Notes under the pieces: model-generated
The model's input: the letters and a program-made list of their open reading frames with translations, nothing else
What the model was told of the DNA's origin: nothing
The model's database searches: none
Shown here: piece after piece, positions 36,493 to 48,947 of the stretch
How the letters are laid out: each line of letters starts with the position of its first letter
How positions within the stretch are numbered: the stretch's first letter is position 1
Source: Candidatus Nitronauta litoralis
GTDB taxonomy: Bacteria > Nitrospinota > Nitrospinia > Nitrospinales > Nitrospinaceae
Length of the DNA: 64,000 bases
Assembly: GCA_015698285.1 (NCBI GenBank)
Contig: CP048685.1
Span: forward strand, 3,722,060-3,786,059
Reading direction: 5' to 3'
Program-made: the position numbers and the translations under genes

Positions 36493-39324
36493 ATGAAAAA
36501 ACTTTTTGACGACCTGACCCGCTCCCTGCAGCAATTCGACAAAGAACATCTTTCTGAAATTCTCCATACTGTAGCCACTGGCCTTAAAAAGGGTTTTAAG
36601 TGCAATACGGTTAGGGTGTATCTCGAGGATCTATACGAGGGAATGCTGGTGTGCCAGTACATTTCTGGAAAAGATCGTCCGGAAAACCACCGGATAATTA
36701 AATATATTTCACCCCGGGAATCCATCACCTCGCAGGCTCTTTATGAAAATTCGGTCATGGTTTCCTGGAAAGTTCCGGGTGGGATTTCCAACTACCGAAA
36801 CCCATTTGAAACCATTGCAGGTATCAAAAGCATGGTCGTATTCCCCATCACCTACCAGATGAGACCCATTGGAACCTTAAGTCTTGATTGGGACCGTGAA
36901 GGACAGTTTCTGGACCAGGAAGCGATTGACGGTATTGCAGGTTTTCTTTCTGAAATCAGTGAGCGCATAGAAAAGGCCAAACGCTTCCGGCAAATCCTGA
37001 CATTTTCCAAACATATCAACCGGGCACAAAAAAAAGAAGCTGCATGGATGATGATGCGATCTGCTGTCAATTTGATTGAAAAGTTGACTCTGGCTTCCGT
37101 CCTAATCCCTTCCAGTCTTCAGGATAACAAGCCCATTCAAGATGGCTCGACCGACCTTGTGGAAATTTTCACTGTATACAGCCAGAACAAGGAGCATGTC
37201 CCGGTTTACAGCGACAAGGACCAGATCAGCGTTCTTAACGATCAAAACCTTATCAGCAGGATTGTTGAGTTTGACCAGGATAAAGGACTTGTCATTCTAG
37301 ATCCCAAACGTTCTGAGGTTTATACCGCTAACGTGATGGAGGAGCAATTCCCACGGAAAGAAATTGTTGAACAATTGAACCTGGTCTCGCTTTATCAAAT
37401 CCCCAAATTTAATAAGGAAACGAACCAGTTCATTTGTGCGGTCAATTATTACACCAGTGAGCCATACCGGTTTACCCGATTCGAAACGCAGCTCTTGCAG
37501 GAGCACGCTTCAATGGTGGAGAAGTTGATTCTGGAGCAGAATCCCACCCATATTGAAATCCAGGTGTTATCTGAAATTGAGGAACTGCTTTCCGAAAAAA
37601 AAACATCCCTTCCGGAATTTTTAAGCAATATCCTGGCTAAAACCTCCGAGTTGCTGGGTGCCGATTGTGGGACCATTTCCCTGTTAAAACTTGTCAACAA
37701 CACATCGTGGCTGGTGATCGAAGATGAAGAAGGCAATACCATTGGGGCCAAATCACGCGACTGGAAGAAAAACAAAATCCCTCCCCTGGCTGTCGGAGGC
37801 AACGACCTTCCCGAGGACACGCGCTCACTTAACGGATACTGCGCACACACGGCACGTCCAGTATTGGTGGGCGATGTAAGGAATAAAAATTCGACCCAGG
37901 GGTTTTATAAAAGCCTGTCTCCCGCTATTCGGTCTGAATTGGCCGTCCCCATCCTCTTTGAAAACCAAGTCTTGGGGGTCATCAACCAGGACAGCTTTCG
38001 AATCAACCATTTCACTGAAGAGCACAAAAAAATCCTGCAAATTATTGCCAGTCTGATAAGTCAAAAAGTACACAACCTGAAGCAGATTGAGGAAATCAAA
38101 CAGGAGAAATCGGCGCTAAGCCAGGAAATTGAATATCGCGATCCAAAGATTTCCTCTTATTACCTCGGTAATGTCATTGGCCGTAGCAGGAAAATCCATA
38201 CTCTTGTTGAGCAAATTGACACGGTAGTCGAGTCCATTGGAAACCGTATGCTGCATTGGGATGAAAGCCATCAATCGGATACAGTGATGGGTTTGCCCTC
38301 GCTCCTGATCGTTGGAAAAACGGGAACCGGAAAAGAATTTTTCTTCAACAATATTTATTCAAGACTTTCAGAAATGTTCAGGAAGCACGGCGGAAATGAC
38401 TTCGAACTGCCTGTAAAAAAAACAAATATTGCAGCCTATAGTGGGGAATTGACCTACAGCGAACTGTTTGGTCATAACAAAGGGGCGTTCACCGGAGCCG
38501 ATTCACACAGGCAGGGTATTCTGGAAGAAGCCGACGGGGGCATTGTTTTTCTGGATGAGATCGGGGATGCCGATCCCAAAACCCAGGTGCAGTTATTGCG
38601 ATTTCTGGATGCAGGTGTGTTCTTCCGTCTTGGAGAAAACAAGCCTCGGCACTCAAGAATATTTTTAATTGCAGCAACCAATAAAAACCTAGGAGAAGAA
38701 ATTGCCCAGGGCCGGTTCAGGGAAGATCTTTTTCACAGATTAAATGCTCTCAGCTTCCGCATACCTTCGCTCGACGAAAGGCGCGATGATATTCAGGACC
38801 TGGCGATTCATTTCCTGGGCCGATTGCATTTCGCCTATAGAAAAGTTAAAGAAGAAGATCCTGCCCCTTATCTGGACCAACCGGCTATAGAGTTTCTTAA
38901 AAAACGAAACTATCGAGGCAATGTGAGGGAATTAAAAAATATCTTGCTACGCGCCCTGTTTTTCCGCAAAGGCCCTGTCATTAAACGCGAGGATATTGAA
39001 GCTGCTTGTCAGGATGATAGTCCGTGGAACACACAACCTGAGGCTCATGAGGAAATATCCACTTCACTTTTGGAGCATATCGAAAATCAGGGAAACAATT
39101 TCTGGACTGTTTTGTACCGTCCCTTCAAATCAAAAGAAATAACTCGCGATACCGTAAGAAATGTTATCGAGACCGCGCGTGACAAATATCAAACCAACCT
39201 TCCCGGACTGGCGATAAAACTAAAAGTGTGTGAAGAGGACTTCCGCGAAAACCAGGAAGAAAATAAAAAGTTTATAAGTTTTAAAAACTTTCTCTACAAA
39301 ACCATTCGAATTTCTGAAATTTAA
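36493..39324 (+). CDS. GAF-domain sigma-54-dependent transcriptional activator
   Basis: A 943-residue regulator. The N-terminal part has two GAF-like sensor regions (about 15-160 and 360-530) with a poorly conserved section between. The AAA+ domain has Walker A GKTGTGKE (about 606-613), the sigma-54 contact loop GAFTGA (about 664), Walker B GGIVFLDEIGD and the arginine-finger region GRFREDLFHRLN. No canonical Fis-type helix-turn-helix is visible; the last 85 residues (FWTVLYRPFKSKEITRDTVR onward) may be a diverged DNA-binding domain. It has no clear ribosome-binding site. It lies back to back with flgB, the likely target. The ligand of the GAF domains is unknown. Confidence 0.9.
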   Translation: MKKLFDDLTRSLQQFDKEHLSEILHTVATGLKKGFKCNTVRVYLEDLYEGMLVCQYISGKDRPENHRIIKYISPRESITSQALYENSVMVSWKVPGGISNYRNPFETIAGIKSMVVFPITYQMRPIGTLSLDWDREGQFLDQEAIDGIAGFLSEISERIEKAKRFRQILTFSKHINRAQKKEAAWMMMRSAVNLIEKLTLASVLIPSSLQDNKPIQDGSTDLVEIFTVYSQNKEHVPVYSDKDQISVLNDQNLISRIVEFDQDKGLVILDPKRSEVYTANVMEEQFPRKEIVEQLNLVSLYQIPKFNKETNQFICAVNYYTSEPYRFTRFETQLLQEHASMVEKLILEQNPTHIEIQVLSEIEELLSEKKTSLPEFLSNILAKTSELLGADCGTISLLKLVNNTSWLVIEDEEGNTIGAKSRDWKKNKIPPLAVGGNDLPEDTRSLNGYCAHTARPVLVGDVRNKNSTQGFYKSLSPAIRSELAVPILFENQVLGVINQDSFRINHFTEEHKKILQIIASLISQKVHNLKQIEEIKQEKSALSQEIEYRDPKISSYYLGNVIGRSRKIHTLVEQIDTVVESIGNRMLHWDESHQSDTVMGLPSLLIVGKTGTGKEFFFNNIYSRLSEMFRKHGGNDFELPVKKTNIAAYSGELTYSELFGHNKGAFTGADSHRQGILEEADGGIVFLDEIGDADPKTQVQLLRFLDAGVFFRLGENKPRHSRIFLIAATNKNLGEEIAQGRFREDLFHRLNALSFRIPSLDERRDDIQDLAIHFLGRLHFAYRKVKEEDPAPYLDQPAIEFLKKRNYRGNVRELKNILLRALFFRKGPVIKREDIEAACQDDSPWNTQPEAHEEISTSLLEHIENQGNNFWTVLYRPFKSKEITRDTVRNVIETARDKYQTNLPGLAIKLKVCEEDFRENQEENKKFISFKNFLYKTIRISEI

Positions 39325-44731: not shown

Positions 44732-44773
44732 AAAAAAACCCTGTTACCCCGGAAACTATCCGGAGCAACAGGG
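44732..44773 (-). terminator. Terminator of the Usp/PCP_red gene
   Basis: CCCTGTTACCCCGG / CCGGAGCAACAGGG stem with one mismatch, followed on the minus strand by seven T. Confidence 0.9.
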
Positions 44774-44835: not shown

Positions 44836-46905
44836 CTATTTTCCCGGAAGGAAGTCTTCAATGGTGGCCCCGTTCTGAATCATTTCACTCATCACCTGAA
44901 CTGAATACTCAATCCCCTTCACGCAGGTTTCGTATGAGATGTTGGTGATGTTTTCTTTTTTCGCAAAGTCAATGACACGGGTGCGGGTGTTGTCTCGCAT
45001 GAACCCTTTTGGAACCTGCTCGAGACGCGCAATCGCTTCCTGCTCCCAAGTAAAGCCGTCCACATCCGGTTGACCGGCTACCAGGTCGCAAACTTCAGGT
45101 TCGGCTGTTGCCACTTGGGTTGCCGAGCCATCACCTGCAAGACCTTTACTGGAATCATTCGCTCCATTGCCATTTCCACCGGAACCGTTTGCCCCATTTT
45201 CCTCTTTCTTAATAACCGCTTTGCCGTTGATGATCTGGGTGGCAAATTCAAGAGACACTTCCAAAACTTTCTGCACTCGGGCGTTTTTCTCGATGCGCGC
45301 ATGAGCACGGCGTCTGATGTGGCCTTCCGGAAACTCCTCCAGAAAGTTGATGGCTTCCTGAGTCCAGGTAACTTCAACAGAATCGAAGGTGGTGACAGTG
45401 GTCGTGTCCTTACTTTCTTCGTCTGTTGGGGTGAACTGGTCTTTGTCTACCGGGGCGAAACTGGAGTCAGTCGCTCCGCAGACGCTGCATTTAACTACAT
45501 CTGAAGGATGGTAAGCCCCACAACTACCACACTTGAGAGTGACGGGAACATCACGTCCATCAGTTTCAGCATGCTCTTCAGCATCTTTCTGGAACTTTTC
45601 GTAGAGAATTTCCTGTCGGTCTTTAATCATGCCCTCCAGTGGATCCTCTCCCTTATCCATTTTATCGCGCATTTGATCCCCAATGCTGTACATCGCCTGC
45701 ATCGCTCCTGCCGGCAGGATATTTTCGCACGCTTCGGTGATAACAGCGGACGTGATCATGCTGTGACCGCGTTCCAGGGAATAGCGCAAGATTGCTGAAG
45801 TCGCCATTGGGCGAACAAAGCCTGGAATTTTCTTGAGACGCTCTTTAGCTTCGGCAGTCCAGTCGATACTTTCCTCTGCCTGCATGTCGATCGGTGGCTT
45901 GAACACTTTGCTGGAAAGGAAGACATTACAGGGAACCATGCGCAGCAGGTTTTCTGTATTTCCTCCGATGTCCATATCTGGTGCACTGTGAACGCCGATC
46001 CTACCCAGAATGAGTAAATAGGGTTTTTCTTCACGAGCGTATTGGAGAATCTTTTCGAAGACCTTTCCATCTAGAAGCCGGATGGTGCACTCCATTCCCT
46101 CTTCCTCAACCAGCTTACGGGACACTTCAAGGTGTGACTGATAAATTTTTGCAAGGCCCTTATCAATAATGTCTTCGTGGAGTTTTTCCTGCTGCTCAAA
46201 CTTGAACACCTTAGCCGCATCTTTGGAAAGGACGCCGGTCAGGCTGTTGAACATTGCGTAATGGAAATAAGGATCAAAAGTGGAGATCACTTCCAGTGGA
46301 CGGTTCAGCTTTTTTGCCATCTCAATACCTGTTTTGAGCCCTCCAAAACAGTGTCCGCTGCCATCAACCGCCACAACAATTTTTCCACTACCGTTGTCAT
46401 TCCCATGCAATTCAGGAACATTTTTTACAATGAGAGTATCGGTTTCAATACGGCGAATCACGCGTTCCGTTACCGTTCCCATTTGGCTATCTTTGATAGC
46501 TCCCAGACCCAGCGCTCCCATAATGACCAAGTCGTAATCTGATTCCTTGATATCCCGGACAAGCTCAATCCAGTTTCGACCTTCAAGTGACTTGCCTACA
46601 AAAGGGACGTCTTCGGATTTACACTTGAAGCGGGGAACATCGAGATAGGAATCGGTAATAACTTCCATCCCCTTAGTGATCAACTGGTCGTGGATGGCAC
46701 GCTGCTTTTCGAGTTCCTGCTCATCCTGGTATTCCTCGGGAAGTCCACTCTCCATCTGGCGAAAGCGAACGTCATGCATTTTGGCCGCATACACATGGCT
46801 GGACGTAACTGTGGTATCGCCACATTTGGCGAATTCCACTGCCATATCGATACAGGCGTTGGAATAGTCCGAGTTATCAACGGGGACATAAATATTTTTG
46901 AACAT
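44836..46905 (-). CDS. Two universal-stress domains fused to a zinc ribbon and three PCP_red-like domains
   Basis: A 689-residue soluble protein. Usp domain 1 spans about 1-163 and Usp domain 2 about 173-333; both keep the ATP-binding pattern G-2x-G-9x-G (G130/G133/G143 and G301/G304/G314). Then comes a PCP_red-like segment at 348-400 (DWTAEAKERLKKIPGFVR), a zinc-ribbon-like pair CGSC 459-462 and CSVC 473-476, and two more segments at about 513-560 (WTQEAINFLEEFPEGHIRR) and 619-675 (WEQEAIARLEQVPKGFMR). PCP_red domains are known from the C-terminus of protochlorophyllide reductase subunit B; this organism shows no sign of photosynthesis. The role is unknown. Confidence 0.85.
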   Translation of the reverse strand: MFKNIYVPVDNSDYSNACIDMAVEFAKCGDTTVTSSHVYAAKMHDVRFRQMESGLPEEYQDEQELEKQRAIHDQLITKGMEVITDSYLDVPRFKCKSEDVPFVGKSLEGRNWIELVRDIKESDYDLVIMGALGLGAIKDSQMGTVTERVIRRIETDTLIVKNVPELHGNDNGSGKIVVAVDGSGHCFGGLKTGIEMAKKLNRPLEVISTFDPYFHYAMFNSLTGVLSKDAAKVFKFEQQEKLHEDIIDKGLAKIYQSHLEVSRKLVEEEGMECTIRLLDGKVFEKILQYAREEKPYLLILGRIGVHSAPDMDIGGNTENLLRMVPCNVFLSSKVFKPPIDMQAEESIDWTAEAKERLKKIPGFVRPMATSAILRYSLERGHSMITSAVITEACENILPAGAMQAMYSIGDQMRDKMDKGEDPLEGMIKDRQEILYEKFQKDAEEHAETDGRDVPVTLKCGSCGAYHPSDVVKCSVCGATDSSFAPVDKDQFTPTDEESKDTTTVTTFDSVEVTWTQEAINFLEEFPEGHIRRRAHARIEKNARVQKVLEVSLEFATQIINGKAVIKKEENGANGSGGNGNGANDSSKGLAGDGSATQVATAEPEVCDLVAGQPDVDGFTWEQEAIARLEQVPKGFMRDNTRTRVIDFAKKENITNISYETCVKGIEYSVQVMSEMIQNGATIEDFLPGK

Positions 46906-47394
46906 GGGGTACTAATCTCCCTGAGTCGTCACCAATTAAATTAGTGAGTGAAATTCAAGACTGTATTTTATTTGGCGGGCTTCACCTGACCCGTTGCCAC
47001 CACTTACAGAGTCCTAACCTACAAGGACCCAAATGACAAAAGCTTTTAACAGTGTAGCCCCTTAAACCCTTTAGAGGTCGGTTTTAAACAAAGACAAGGC
47101 GCAAGGGCGCAATTGTTTGAAAATTCTAGCAAAAATATTGGGGGTGTCAACTGAAAATCCCCTTTATAGAACAAGCACAACTCCTTATAACCACGATATT
47201 TTCAAAGATTGTCCGTCTGAAGTGATTTGGATTTCCCGGATTCAGAAATTCCGTGAGGAAAGCTACAAACAACCGGCGCACTCAGGCTTTCAACCCTTTG
47301 ATTTTTAAAGCTTTTTTAACTACTATTTTTCTCATGCCCAAGGCACCCTGTTTAGGCTATAATCCTTCAGACTTATTACCGCTTAGGTAGTCTC

Positions 47395-47546: not shown

Positions 47547-48947
47547 ATGGTTCCCACCAGTAAAGAGGATATCGCTAACCTATTAAAGGGTGCTGCCACT
47601 CTCAATGACCGGGATGTGGAGCTGAATAACGCTGATCTTCTCAGGTCTGGCCCCCTGGATTCCCTGGTGGAAAACTCGGTTTTGAATGAGTCTCCTGAAA
47701 TACGCGCATATTGTCGGTACGTTATCAAGAAACTGTCTTTACAACTGGGTGTTATTCCAGCCTCCATACAAGGCCTTTATGATGCCCGTGGCCGTGGAGA
47801 AAATAGCGGGTACACAGTTCCTGCTCTCAATATCCGGGGAATGGCATATGAGTTTAGCCGGTCAATTTTTCGGACGGCCCAGGCTCTGGATGCTGGAGCT
47901 TTCATCTTTGAAATAGCAAAGTCAGAAATCGGGTACACCCACCAAAGACCCCATGAACTCATTGCGGTCATCCTGGGAGCTGCTATTAAGGAAGGATTTG
48001 TTGGACCTGTTTTTGTCCAGGGCGACCACTTCCAAATCAATGCAAAAAAATATCATGAAGACAGCAATAAAGAGGTTTCTGGCCTCAAGGATCTCATTCT
48101 CGAAGGATTGAACGCCGGTTTCTACAACATTGACATCGACACCTCTACGTTGGTGACCCTCGACCCTGAAGAAGTAAAAGAGCAACAGCGCTTGAATTTT
48201 GAAGTGGGTGTTGAGCTTACCAAATTTGTCCGTGAAAACGAGCCCGAAGGAGTTACGGTTTCCGTGGGAGGTGAAATCGGGGAGGTAGGAAAAGAAAATA
48301 GCAATGAGGCCGAGTTGCGTGCTTATATGGATAATTTCAATGAACAGTTGGCAAAGATCAACCCGGACTACAAAACCATCAGCAAAATTTCTATCCAGAC
48401 AGGCACCGAGCACGGAGGGGTTCCCCTCCCAGATGGCACCGTAGCAGATGTAGCACTTGATTTTGATACGCTGGAAAACCTGTCTCGAATTTCAAGAGAA
48501 CACTATCAACTGGCCGGAGCTGTGCAGCATGGAGCCTCCACCCTTCCCCATGATATGTTCAATCGGTTCCCCCAATTGGAAACCGCCGAAATTCACCTGG
48601 CAACGGATTTCCAGAACCTGATCTATGAAAGCGAACACTTCCCCAAAGACCTCAAGGAAAGAATCTACAAACATCTGCATGCTGAGTTTCCTGGAGATAA
48701 AAAACCAGGCTGGACGGATGAACAATTTATTTACAAAACCAGAAAAAAAGGTTTTGGTAATCCGTTCAAAAAAGAATTCTGGGGATTATCTGAAGATATC
48801 AAATCTGCCATCGGGAAAGAACTCGAAGCAAAGGTTCGTTTTTATTTCGAACAACTACAGGCTGGAAATACAAGGGATATAGTTACCAAATCTGTAGACC
48901 CCAAACAGGTCACCCCCTGCCTGGACAATGAATTGAAATACGCCTGA
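47547..48947 (+). CDS. Class II fructose-bisphosphate aldolase-type enzyme
   Basis: A 466-residue zinc aldolase, longer than the usual 300-360 residues. VQGDHFQIN, GGEIGEVGKEN, TGTEHGG and AVQHGASTLP match metal and phosphate-binding parts of the class II fold. The first 85 residues before GYTVPALNIRG are an N-terminal extension, and there is an extra C-terminal part. It probably acts in glycolysis, gluconeogenesis or the reductive carbon cycles, but tagatose or other sugar bisphosphates are possible substrates. AGGAG lies 6 bases before the ATG. Confidence 0.82.
   Translation: MVPTSKEDIANLLKGAATLNDRDVELNNADLLRSGPLDSLVENSVLNESPEIRAYCRYVIKKLSLQLGVIPASIQGLYDARGRGENSGYTVPALNIRGMAYEFSRSIFRTAQALDAGAFIFEIAKSEIGYTHQRPHELIAVILGAAIKEGFVGPVFVQGDHFQINAKKYHEDSNKEVSGLKDLILEGLNAGFYNIDIDTSTLVTLDPEEVKEQQRLNFEVGVELTKFVRENEPEGVTVSVGGEIGEVGKENSNEAELRAYMDNFNEQLAKINPDYKTISKISIQTGTEHGGVPLPDGTVADVALDFDTLENLSRISREHYQLAGAVQHGASTLPHDMFNRFPQLETAEIHLATDFQNLIYESEHFPKDLKERIYKHLHAEFPGDKKPGWTDEQFIYKTRKKGFGNPFKKEFWGLSEDIKSAIGKELEAKVRFYFEQLQAGNTRDIVTKSVDPKQVTPCLDNELKYA

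Follow-up and report, generated by a model that had tools for sequence, protein, structure and literature searches.

The analysed window, a 64,000-nucleotide stretch of the Candidatus Nitronauta litoralis genome, contains on its minus strand an open reading frame that begins with an ATG codon at position 46905, ends at position 44836 and encodes a protein of 689 aa. Results of Pfam searches, profile searches of the PDB and comparisons of AlphaFold models with the use of Foldseek are concordant as to the order of its parts from the N- to the C-terminus: two universal stress protein (Usp) domains, a PCP_red domain, a knuckle of four cysteines (Cys4), and two further PCP_red domains. This is the layout that had been read from the sequence in the original prediction. 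The features of the gene and its surroundings are as follows:

44836..46905, minus strand: whole gene, stop codon included, of the 689-aa tandem-Usp, PCP_red and rubredoxin-like protein (open reading frame, Pfam, orthologues)
46423..46905, minus strand: Usp domain 1 (Usp1), residues 1-161 (Pfam PF00582 at residues 1-161, motif, fold match)
45907..46392, minus strand: Usp domain 2 (Usp2), residues about 172-333 (Pfam, fold match, alignment)
45730..45861, minus strand: PCP_red copy 1, residues 349-392 (52.9 bits in the genome search, cut-off 32.5; match to 2KRU)
45448..45537, minus strand: Cys4 rubredoxin-like knuckle, residues about 457-486 (RUBY_RBDX in orthologues, profile matches, four Cys)
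45235..45366, minus strand: PCP_red copy 2, residues about 514-557 (weakest copy; gained as the third Pfam stretch when E up to 1 is allowed)
44926..45048, minus strand: PCP_red copy 3, residues about 620-660 (31.0 bits in the genome search; pLDDT about 90)
44739..44773, minus strand: terminator-like hairpin of 15 pairs followed by TTTTTTT, 63 bases past the stop codon (consensus scan only)
47123..47150, minus strand: promoter-like site TTGACA-16-TAGAAT upstream of the gene (11/12 match; consensus scan)

The terminator-like hairpin 3' of the stop codon suggests that the gene forms a single-gene unit, while the promoter scan is weak, with 2 sites found versus 2.8 expected at the 9-of-12 threshold. 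The neighbouring genes, which encode an aldolase-like protein, an MsbA-like ABC transporter, a ketoacyl-synthase-like protein and SAHH (the last two assigned by eye), are kept around the gene in Nitrospinaceae. They were dropped as a clue to its function, as they have no common theme and the hairpin lies 3' of the Usp gene. The aldolase-like neighbour (window 47547-48947), whose adjacency to the Usp gene is kept in Nitrospinaceae, is a diverged protein of class II type, whose scores fall far short of the NCBIfam cut-offs usual for aldolases. Elsewhere in the window, positions 36493-39324 encode a 943-aa protein, in which GAF-like N-terminal regions followed by an AAA+ domain of the sigma-54-activator type can be discerned by eye.

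The Usp family (PF00582) is matched by two stretches of the protein, with an E value of 4.9e-30 and 105.4 bits (cut-off 24). In Usp1 the nucleotide motif G-2X-G-9X-G-T is complete (G130, G133, G143, T144), and its three glycines are invariant in all 54 tandem-Usp sequences that we aligned. The corresponding motif of Usp2 reads G301-2X-G304-9X-G314-G, with the final glycine replaced by serine in Nitrospira (G-S). The model of the N-terminal half superimposes on the tandem Usp Rv2623 (3CIS) with Z 24.9 and an rmsd of 4.1 over 279 aligned residues, and on 3AB8 with Z 24.2; the AlphaFold models behind this fold and that of PCP_red copy 1 have mean pLDDT values of 71 and 74. The protein thus resembles known tandem Usps, such as UspE/YdaA, Rv2623 and TTHA0350, in having two Usp domains per chain and the nucleotide motif in Usp1, but differs from them by six near-invariant histidines, by its C-terminal PCP_red and rubredoxin-like parts and by a fixed genomic partner.

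The six histidines are distributed over both Usp halves, several of them in or near helical inserts: H37, H44 and H72 in a helical insert region of Usp1, and H215, H243 and H306 in Usp2. We aligned 54 tandem-Usp sequences, with and without PCP_red, whose identities reach as low as about 31%. All of them have H37, H72 and H306; H44 and H215 are each present in 53 of the 54, and H243 in every one of the 53 sequences that include its position. Near-invariance of the set is independent of the presence of PCP_red. The sole exception, L244, has no fused PCP_red and has apparently lost H44, H215 and the position of H243 together, as read from its sequence. The histidine set looks like a candidate site for a metal or an iron-tetrapyrrole.

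The PCP_red family (PF08369) is matched in the window protein with E 5.9e-25 and 87.5 bits (cut-off 32.5), in three stretches when E up to 1 is allowed, two of which have E of 0.01 or less on their own. The weakest is copy 2. In the orthologue from Nitrospira moscoviensis, all three copies score above the Pfam cut-off (54.3, 41.7 and 35.4 bits for copies 1, 2 and 3), including the one at the position of copy 2. A profile of the C-terminal half, built from 51 orthologues and searched against the PDB, has as its top matches the PCP_red structures 2L09 (Asr4154) and 2KRU (the tail of Chlorobium BchB) and several B subunits of DPOR. The best Foldseek match of the model of residues 343-689 is 2KRU, an isolated PCP_red domain (probability 1.00, rmsd 1.1 over 51 columns, E 5.5e-3), and chain D of 2YNM aligns to this model at 0.9 Angstrom over 50 residues. 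The match to 2KRU concerns copy 1, and copies 2 and 3 are assigned by the identical three-helix pattern that the model has in all three. These segments, accepted by the profiles and matched in fold, are not the unrelated helical hairpins that had been considered as an alternative. The PCP_red fold also resembles the lids of AAA+ proteins, for example that of RuvB (Z 6-7.6), and PCP_red might on this account be a purely generic helical contact module. We consider this highly improbable, since the partners of PCP_red are repeatedly tetrapyrrole enzymes, and read the likeness to the lids as a common helical arrangement. A search of the open literature (subscription papers being outside its scope) found nothing on the function of PCP_red (PF08369).

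Between PCP_red copies 1 and 2, cysteines C459, C462, C473 and C476 are invariant in all 51 orthologues. The segment had been proposed to be a zinc ribbon; the four cysteines stand, but the domain is better called a diverged rubrerythrin-type rubredoxin-like domain, as RUBY_RBDX (PF21349) is matched by 34 of the 51 orthologues (best E 3.1e-8; the window copy itself is below the Pfam threshold) and the profile of the C-terminal half also matches rubrerythrins 3MPS and 1NNQ over the Cys part. In Nitrospirota the segment reads YFVCDGCGYIGKGDTPVKCPVCGAxxxxFKxVDK, and the Nitrospina version is diverged with the four cysteines retained. While the likeness to the C-terminal rubredoxin-like domain of rubrerythrins is seen in these orthologues and by profile, the window protein differs from rubrerythrins in that its own knuckle has diverged below the Pfam cut-off and in that no rubrerythrin di-iron domain was detected in it.

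The layout of the protein is not due to chance, because the same layout recurs at full length in two phyla, in Nitrospirota in Nitrospira and its kin. A match to the window protein is present in 73 of 77 genomes of Nitrospinota (taken as the phylum of the host from named relatives) and some match in 235 of 296 sampled genomes of Nitrospirota, about a hundred of which have alignments that cover the protein wholly or for the most part, with 45-52% identity. The tail grows across Nitrospinota: one deep family has a form of about 400 aa with the layout Usp-Usp-PCP_red only, and another family (L086) has more PCP_red copies and a rubredoxin-like part. Tandem-Usp relatives without PCP_red form a separate branch in a quick tree, which has long branches and from which we draw no direction of change. 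One genome-wide scan was evaluated by its best 80 matches, and a search of plasmids yielded only weak Usps, mostly haloarchaeal, with 22-24% identity. In two loci (L254:5053-7755 and L255:5078-7807) the tandem-Usp orthologues have 900-909 aa, with extra PCP_red-like copies and two further Cys-rich knuckles past the region common with the window protein, both recognized by eye.

PCP_red forms the tail of DPOR, the chlorophyll enzyme that works in the dark, and has to our knowledge received little explanation so far. The domain of the window protein is the same as that of DPOR subunit B (BchB/ChlB) and of the stand-alone Asr4154 by Pfam, by profile searches of the PDB and by predicted fold, but the protein differs from subunit B in lacking the nitrogenase-like catalytic part, in having three PCP_red copies and in the absence of DPOR from the phylum. 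It was ruled out as a BchB, since it matches TIGR01278 (BchB) only at profile positions 457-510 of 512, with 53.1 bits versus a cut-off of 490 and no full-length match. In agreement with the view in the original prediction that the organism is apparently non-photosynthetic, none of the 77 Nitrospinota genomes has a BchN above the cut-off; weak matches in two of them are probably nitrogenase-like. The possibility that PCP_red is a relict of DPOR in these bacteria was rejected on the same ground.

The bare pairing of Usp with a BchB tail is not new, as a 2025 survey of archaeal USPs already notes it, as an unusual automatic annotation, in Methanomicrobiaceae, where USP is linked to LI-POR_suB-like_C, the C-terminal domain of BchB (PMC12159084). 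The proteins described there are archaeal and come from non-photosynthetic organisms, and the passages on them mention no radical-SAM or heme partner, repeats or rubredoxin-like knuckle.

The host genome contains five PCP_red genes, which we designate A to E, E being that of the window protein. Gene products A to D differ in their further domains. Protein B is a radical SAM/SPASM protein with PCP_red at its C-terminal end (E 1.1e-12). The two best NCBIfam models of protein B are NirJ2 (322.8 bits) and AhbD (305 bits), both well below the equivalog cut-off of 500 bits. On its sequence it is to be placed in a related, separate subfamily beside NirJ2 and AhbD, and a tetrapyrrole is its putative substrate. 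Protein C (L041:5599-6549) has PCP_red fused N-terminally to an enzyme of the HemQ/chlorite dismutase family, which among solved structures is nearest to coproheme decarboxylases (E 6.9e-26 versus about 9e-14 for chlorite dismutases), and protein D has three PCP_red copies. In the first search of relatives, PCP_red matches were found in 41 of 41 genomes, most of which have seven to nine.

Protein A, of 145 aa, combines Cys motifs with PCP_red, and its gene adjoins that of an NBP35/Mrp-type ATPase (L039:6207-7604), a pairing that recurs in Nitrospirota (L178, L191). 4Fe-4S clusters are present in BchNB/BchL and in the radical-SAM enzyme. Together with the Cys4 knuckle, this would be consistent with PCP_red proteins serving in iron-sulfur cluster maturation or iron handling, the links to radical-SAM and NBP35-like proteins then reflecting Fe-S clusters; however, PCP_red occurs also on the HemQ-like coproheme decarboxylase, which belongs to a family without an Fe-S cluster, and we regard this explanation as rather improbable. 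In Nitrospira (L204:1465-2679 and L201) a protein of 164 aa that combines Cys motifs with two PCP_red domains adjoins a DUF420 membrane protein.

The fixed partner of the tandem-Usp gene is gene B. In Nitrospirota, gene E is followed directly by B on the same strand in 42 of 43 testable loci, and among 19 divergent Nitrospirota loci the order is the same in 14 and a downstream same-strand radical-SAM gene is absent in five, one of which (L236) has the order reversed. The two testable loci of the deepest Nitrospinota family, that of the 400-aa form, also have the E-B order. In many loci the two genes overlap by 7-51 bases, and the pairing holds even for Usp proteins that lack PCP_red altogether, at identities of about 31-43%. 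The gene next after the pair in Nitrospirota usually encodes a small membrane protein (DUF4149, weak CopD). In a 730-aa protein (L251:3214-5406) B is fused with D, and in L253 the tandem Usp is fused to the tail of D, with E 1e-26 outside PCP_red. The conserved gene order and these two fusions suggest that E, B and D belong to a single functional unit. Within the host's own genome E and B lie about 0.69 Mb apart, and they are unlinked across Nitrospinaceae, so for the host we infer the link by orthology from its relatives.

The setting of these genes in the host is that of heme synthesis. Ferrochelatase is present in 12 of 13 genomes of the host order, and HemY/CgoX is above the cut-off in 12 of 13, although the model used, TIGR00562, does not tell CgoX from protoporphyrinogen oxidase. 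In the same 13 genomes no HemF was found and no HemN above the cut-off, the HemN-like matches of 175-200 bits being probably HemW. A siroheme or heme d1 route in the host was rejected, because none of the genomes of the host and its relatives, 21 in all, has a siroheme decarboxylase above the cut-off. By elimination, given the presence of ferrochelatase and HemY/CgoX and the lack of HemF, HemN and siroheme decarboxylase above cut-offs, the coproporphyrin route is likely in the host order. Both candidate enzymes of the host for the conversion of coproheme to heme, the HemQ-like protein C and the radical-SAM protein B, carry PCP_red. Either AhbD or ChdC suffices for the final step of this route (PMC7242693), and in Haloferax volcanii ChdC is used under aerobic and AhbD under anaerobic conditions (PMC5746218), which is a precedent for the division between oxic and low-oxygen conditions that we propose for the host.

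The radical-SAM enzyme might instead be of NirJ type, in which case the window protein would support the making of heme d1 or some other modified tetrapyrrole, and not of heme b. Among the NCBIfam models NirJ2 fits B best, and at one locus with a PCP_red-free tandem Usp (L237) the genes nearby encode a cytochrome cd1 (Cytochrom_D1, E 4e-126), another protein with a cd1 domain and an enzyme resembling NirJ, with siroheme decarboxylase genes about 2 kb off on the same contig. Such a NirS-type cluster was found at this locus only, however, and siroheme decarboxylase is missing not only from the host and its relatives (21 of 21 genomes) but also from eight of ten others, most of them carriers of the E-B pair, N. 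moscoviensis included. The lack of this enzyme disfavours a role in heme d1 synthesis in those eight genomes, and we find such a role quite improbable. At another locus with a PCP_red-free tandem Usp (L247), the adjoining gene is hemL.

Taken together, gene order, gene fusions, the tetrapyrrole genes at L237 and L247, the pathway setting, the conserved histidines and domain content lead us to favour, with moderate confidence, the interpretation that the window protein is a dedicated accessory, be it a subunit or a chaperone, of the radical-SAM reaction with which heme synthesis ends. The step served would best be read as that from coproheme to heme b, or as a closely related tetrapyrrole step, and the protein probably assists in heme synthesis instead of being a general stress protein. 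In comparison with AhbD, NirJ and ChdC (HemQ), the window protein is not itself such an enzyme but a putative accessory, whose genomic partner is NirJ2/AhbD-like, in a host whose HemQ-like protein carries PCP_red.

Within this accessory role, the tandem-Usp core, through the histidines of both halves, would hold an iron-tetrapyrrole or its iron, and Usp1 may bind ATP. By analogy with the end of the DPOR B subunit, the three PCP_red arms may dock onto tetrapyrrole enzymes or their substrate, and the rubredoxin-like knuckle could pass electrons or hold iron. In this way the protein would feed, stabilise or gate the radical-SAM enzyme, which is sensitive to oxygen; with peroxide, the same reaction would be performed by the PCP_red-HemQ protein. 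More tentatively, and with the odds in our opinion against it, one may envisage a hitherto undescribed heme-assembly module of nitrite oxidisers in which the six-histidine tandem Usps act on tetrapyrroles as chaperones that depend on ATP. PCP_red would then serve chlorophyll and heme synthesis alike as a general domain for docking or substrate transfer, carried by the peroxide-dependent, HemQ-like terminal heme synthase as well as by the radical-SAM one.

The original prediction envisaged a stress sensor of a tetrapyrrole, of redox state or of an Fe-S protein. Its tetrapyrrole part is strongly supported by the gene order, the fusions and the presence of PCP_red on both candidate coproheme decarboxylases, and its redox part is compatible with the rubredoxin-like knuckle, but the stress sensor itself is not borne out. 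As a regulator or sensor, the protein would read the nucleotide state through Usp1 and Usp2 and iron, redox state or heme through the knuckle and the histidines, with the PCP_red arms signalling to tetrapyrrole enzymes at low oxygen. The tandem-Usp fold with its intact nucleotide motif is in favour of such a function, the same gene partners are compatible with it, and UspA proteins are reported to be increased at low oxygen in Nitrospira marina, where they lie next to induced operons (PMC8115632), although we do not equate them with the window gene. No signalling output domain was found in the window protein, however, and a gene that stably pairs and overlaps with that of an enzyme more typically encodes a subunit or chaperone. 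We consider a regulator or sensor unlikely and prefer an accessory of heme synthesis to a stand-alone stress sensor, because the constant partner is a biosynthetic enzyme.

Universal stress proteins are, as far as we know, mostly without a precise biochemical function. The tandem Usp described here goes with one constant partner, itself related to tetrapyrrole enzymes, in two phyla of nitrite oxidisers that are of global importance. If the accessory role is true, a Usp gains a testable function and PCP_red a general role in tetrapyrrole handling, and a way is suggested in which Nitrospira and Nitrospina may switch heme synthesis between oxic and low-oxygen water.

It can be added that several Nitrospirota whose tandem Usps lack PCP_red encode, near the radical-SAM+PCP_red gene, a conserved protein of about 240 aa (L243:8540-9253, L246:8560-9291, L247:3551-4285, and L241 from 12665). 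For the L243 copy neither Pfam nor NCBIfam gives a match, and the protein is recognizable by the motif F.NEM..GK.LRYFSAHLPVM.TW ... NMTVKGIGLIPR.
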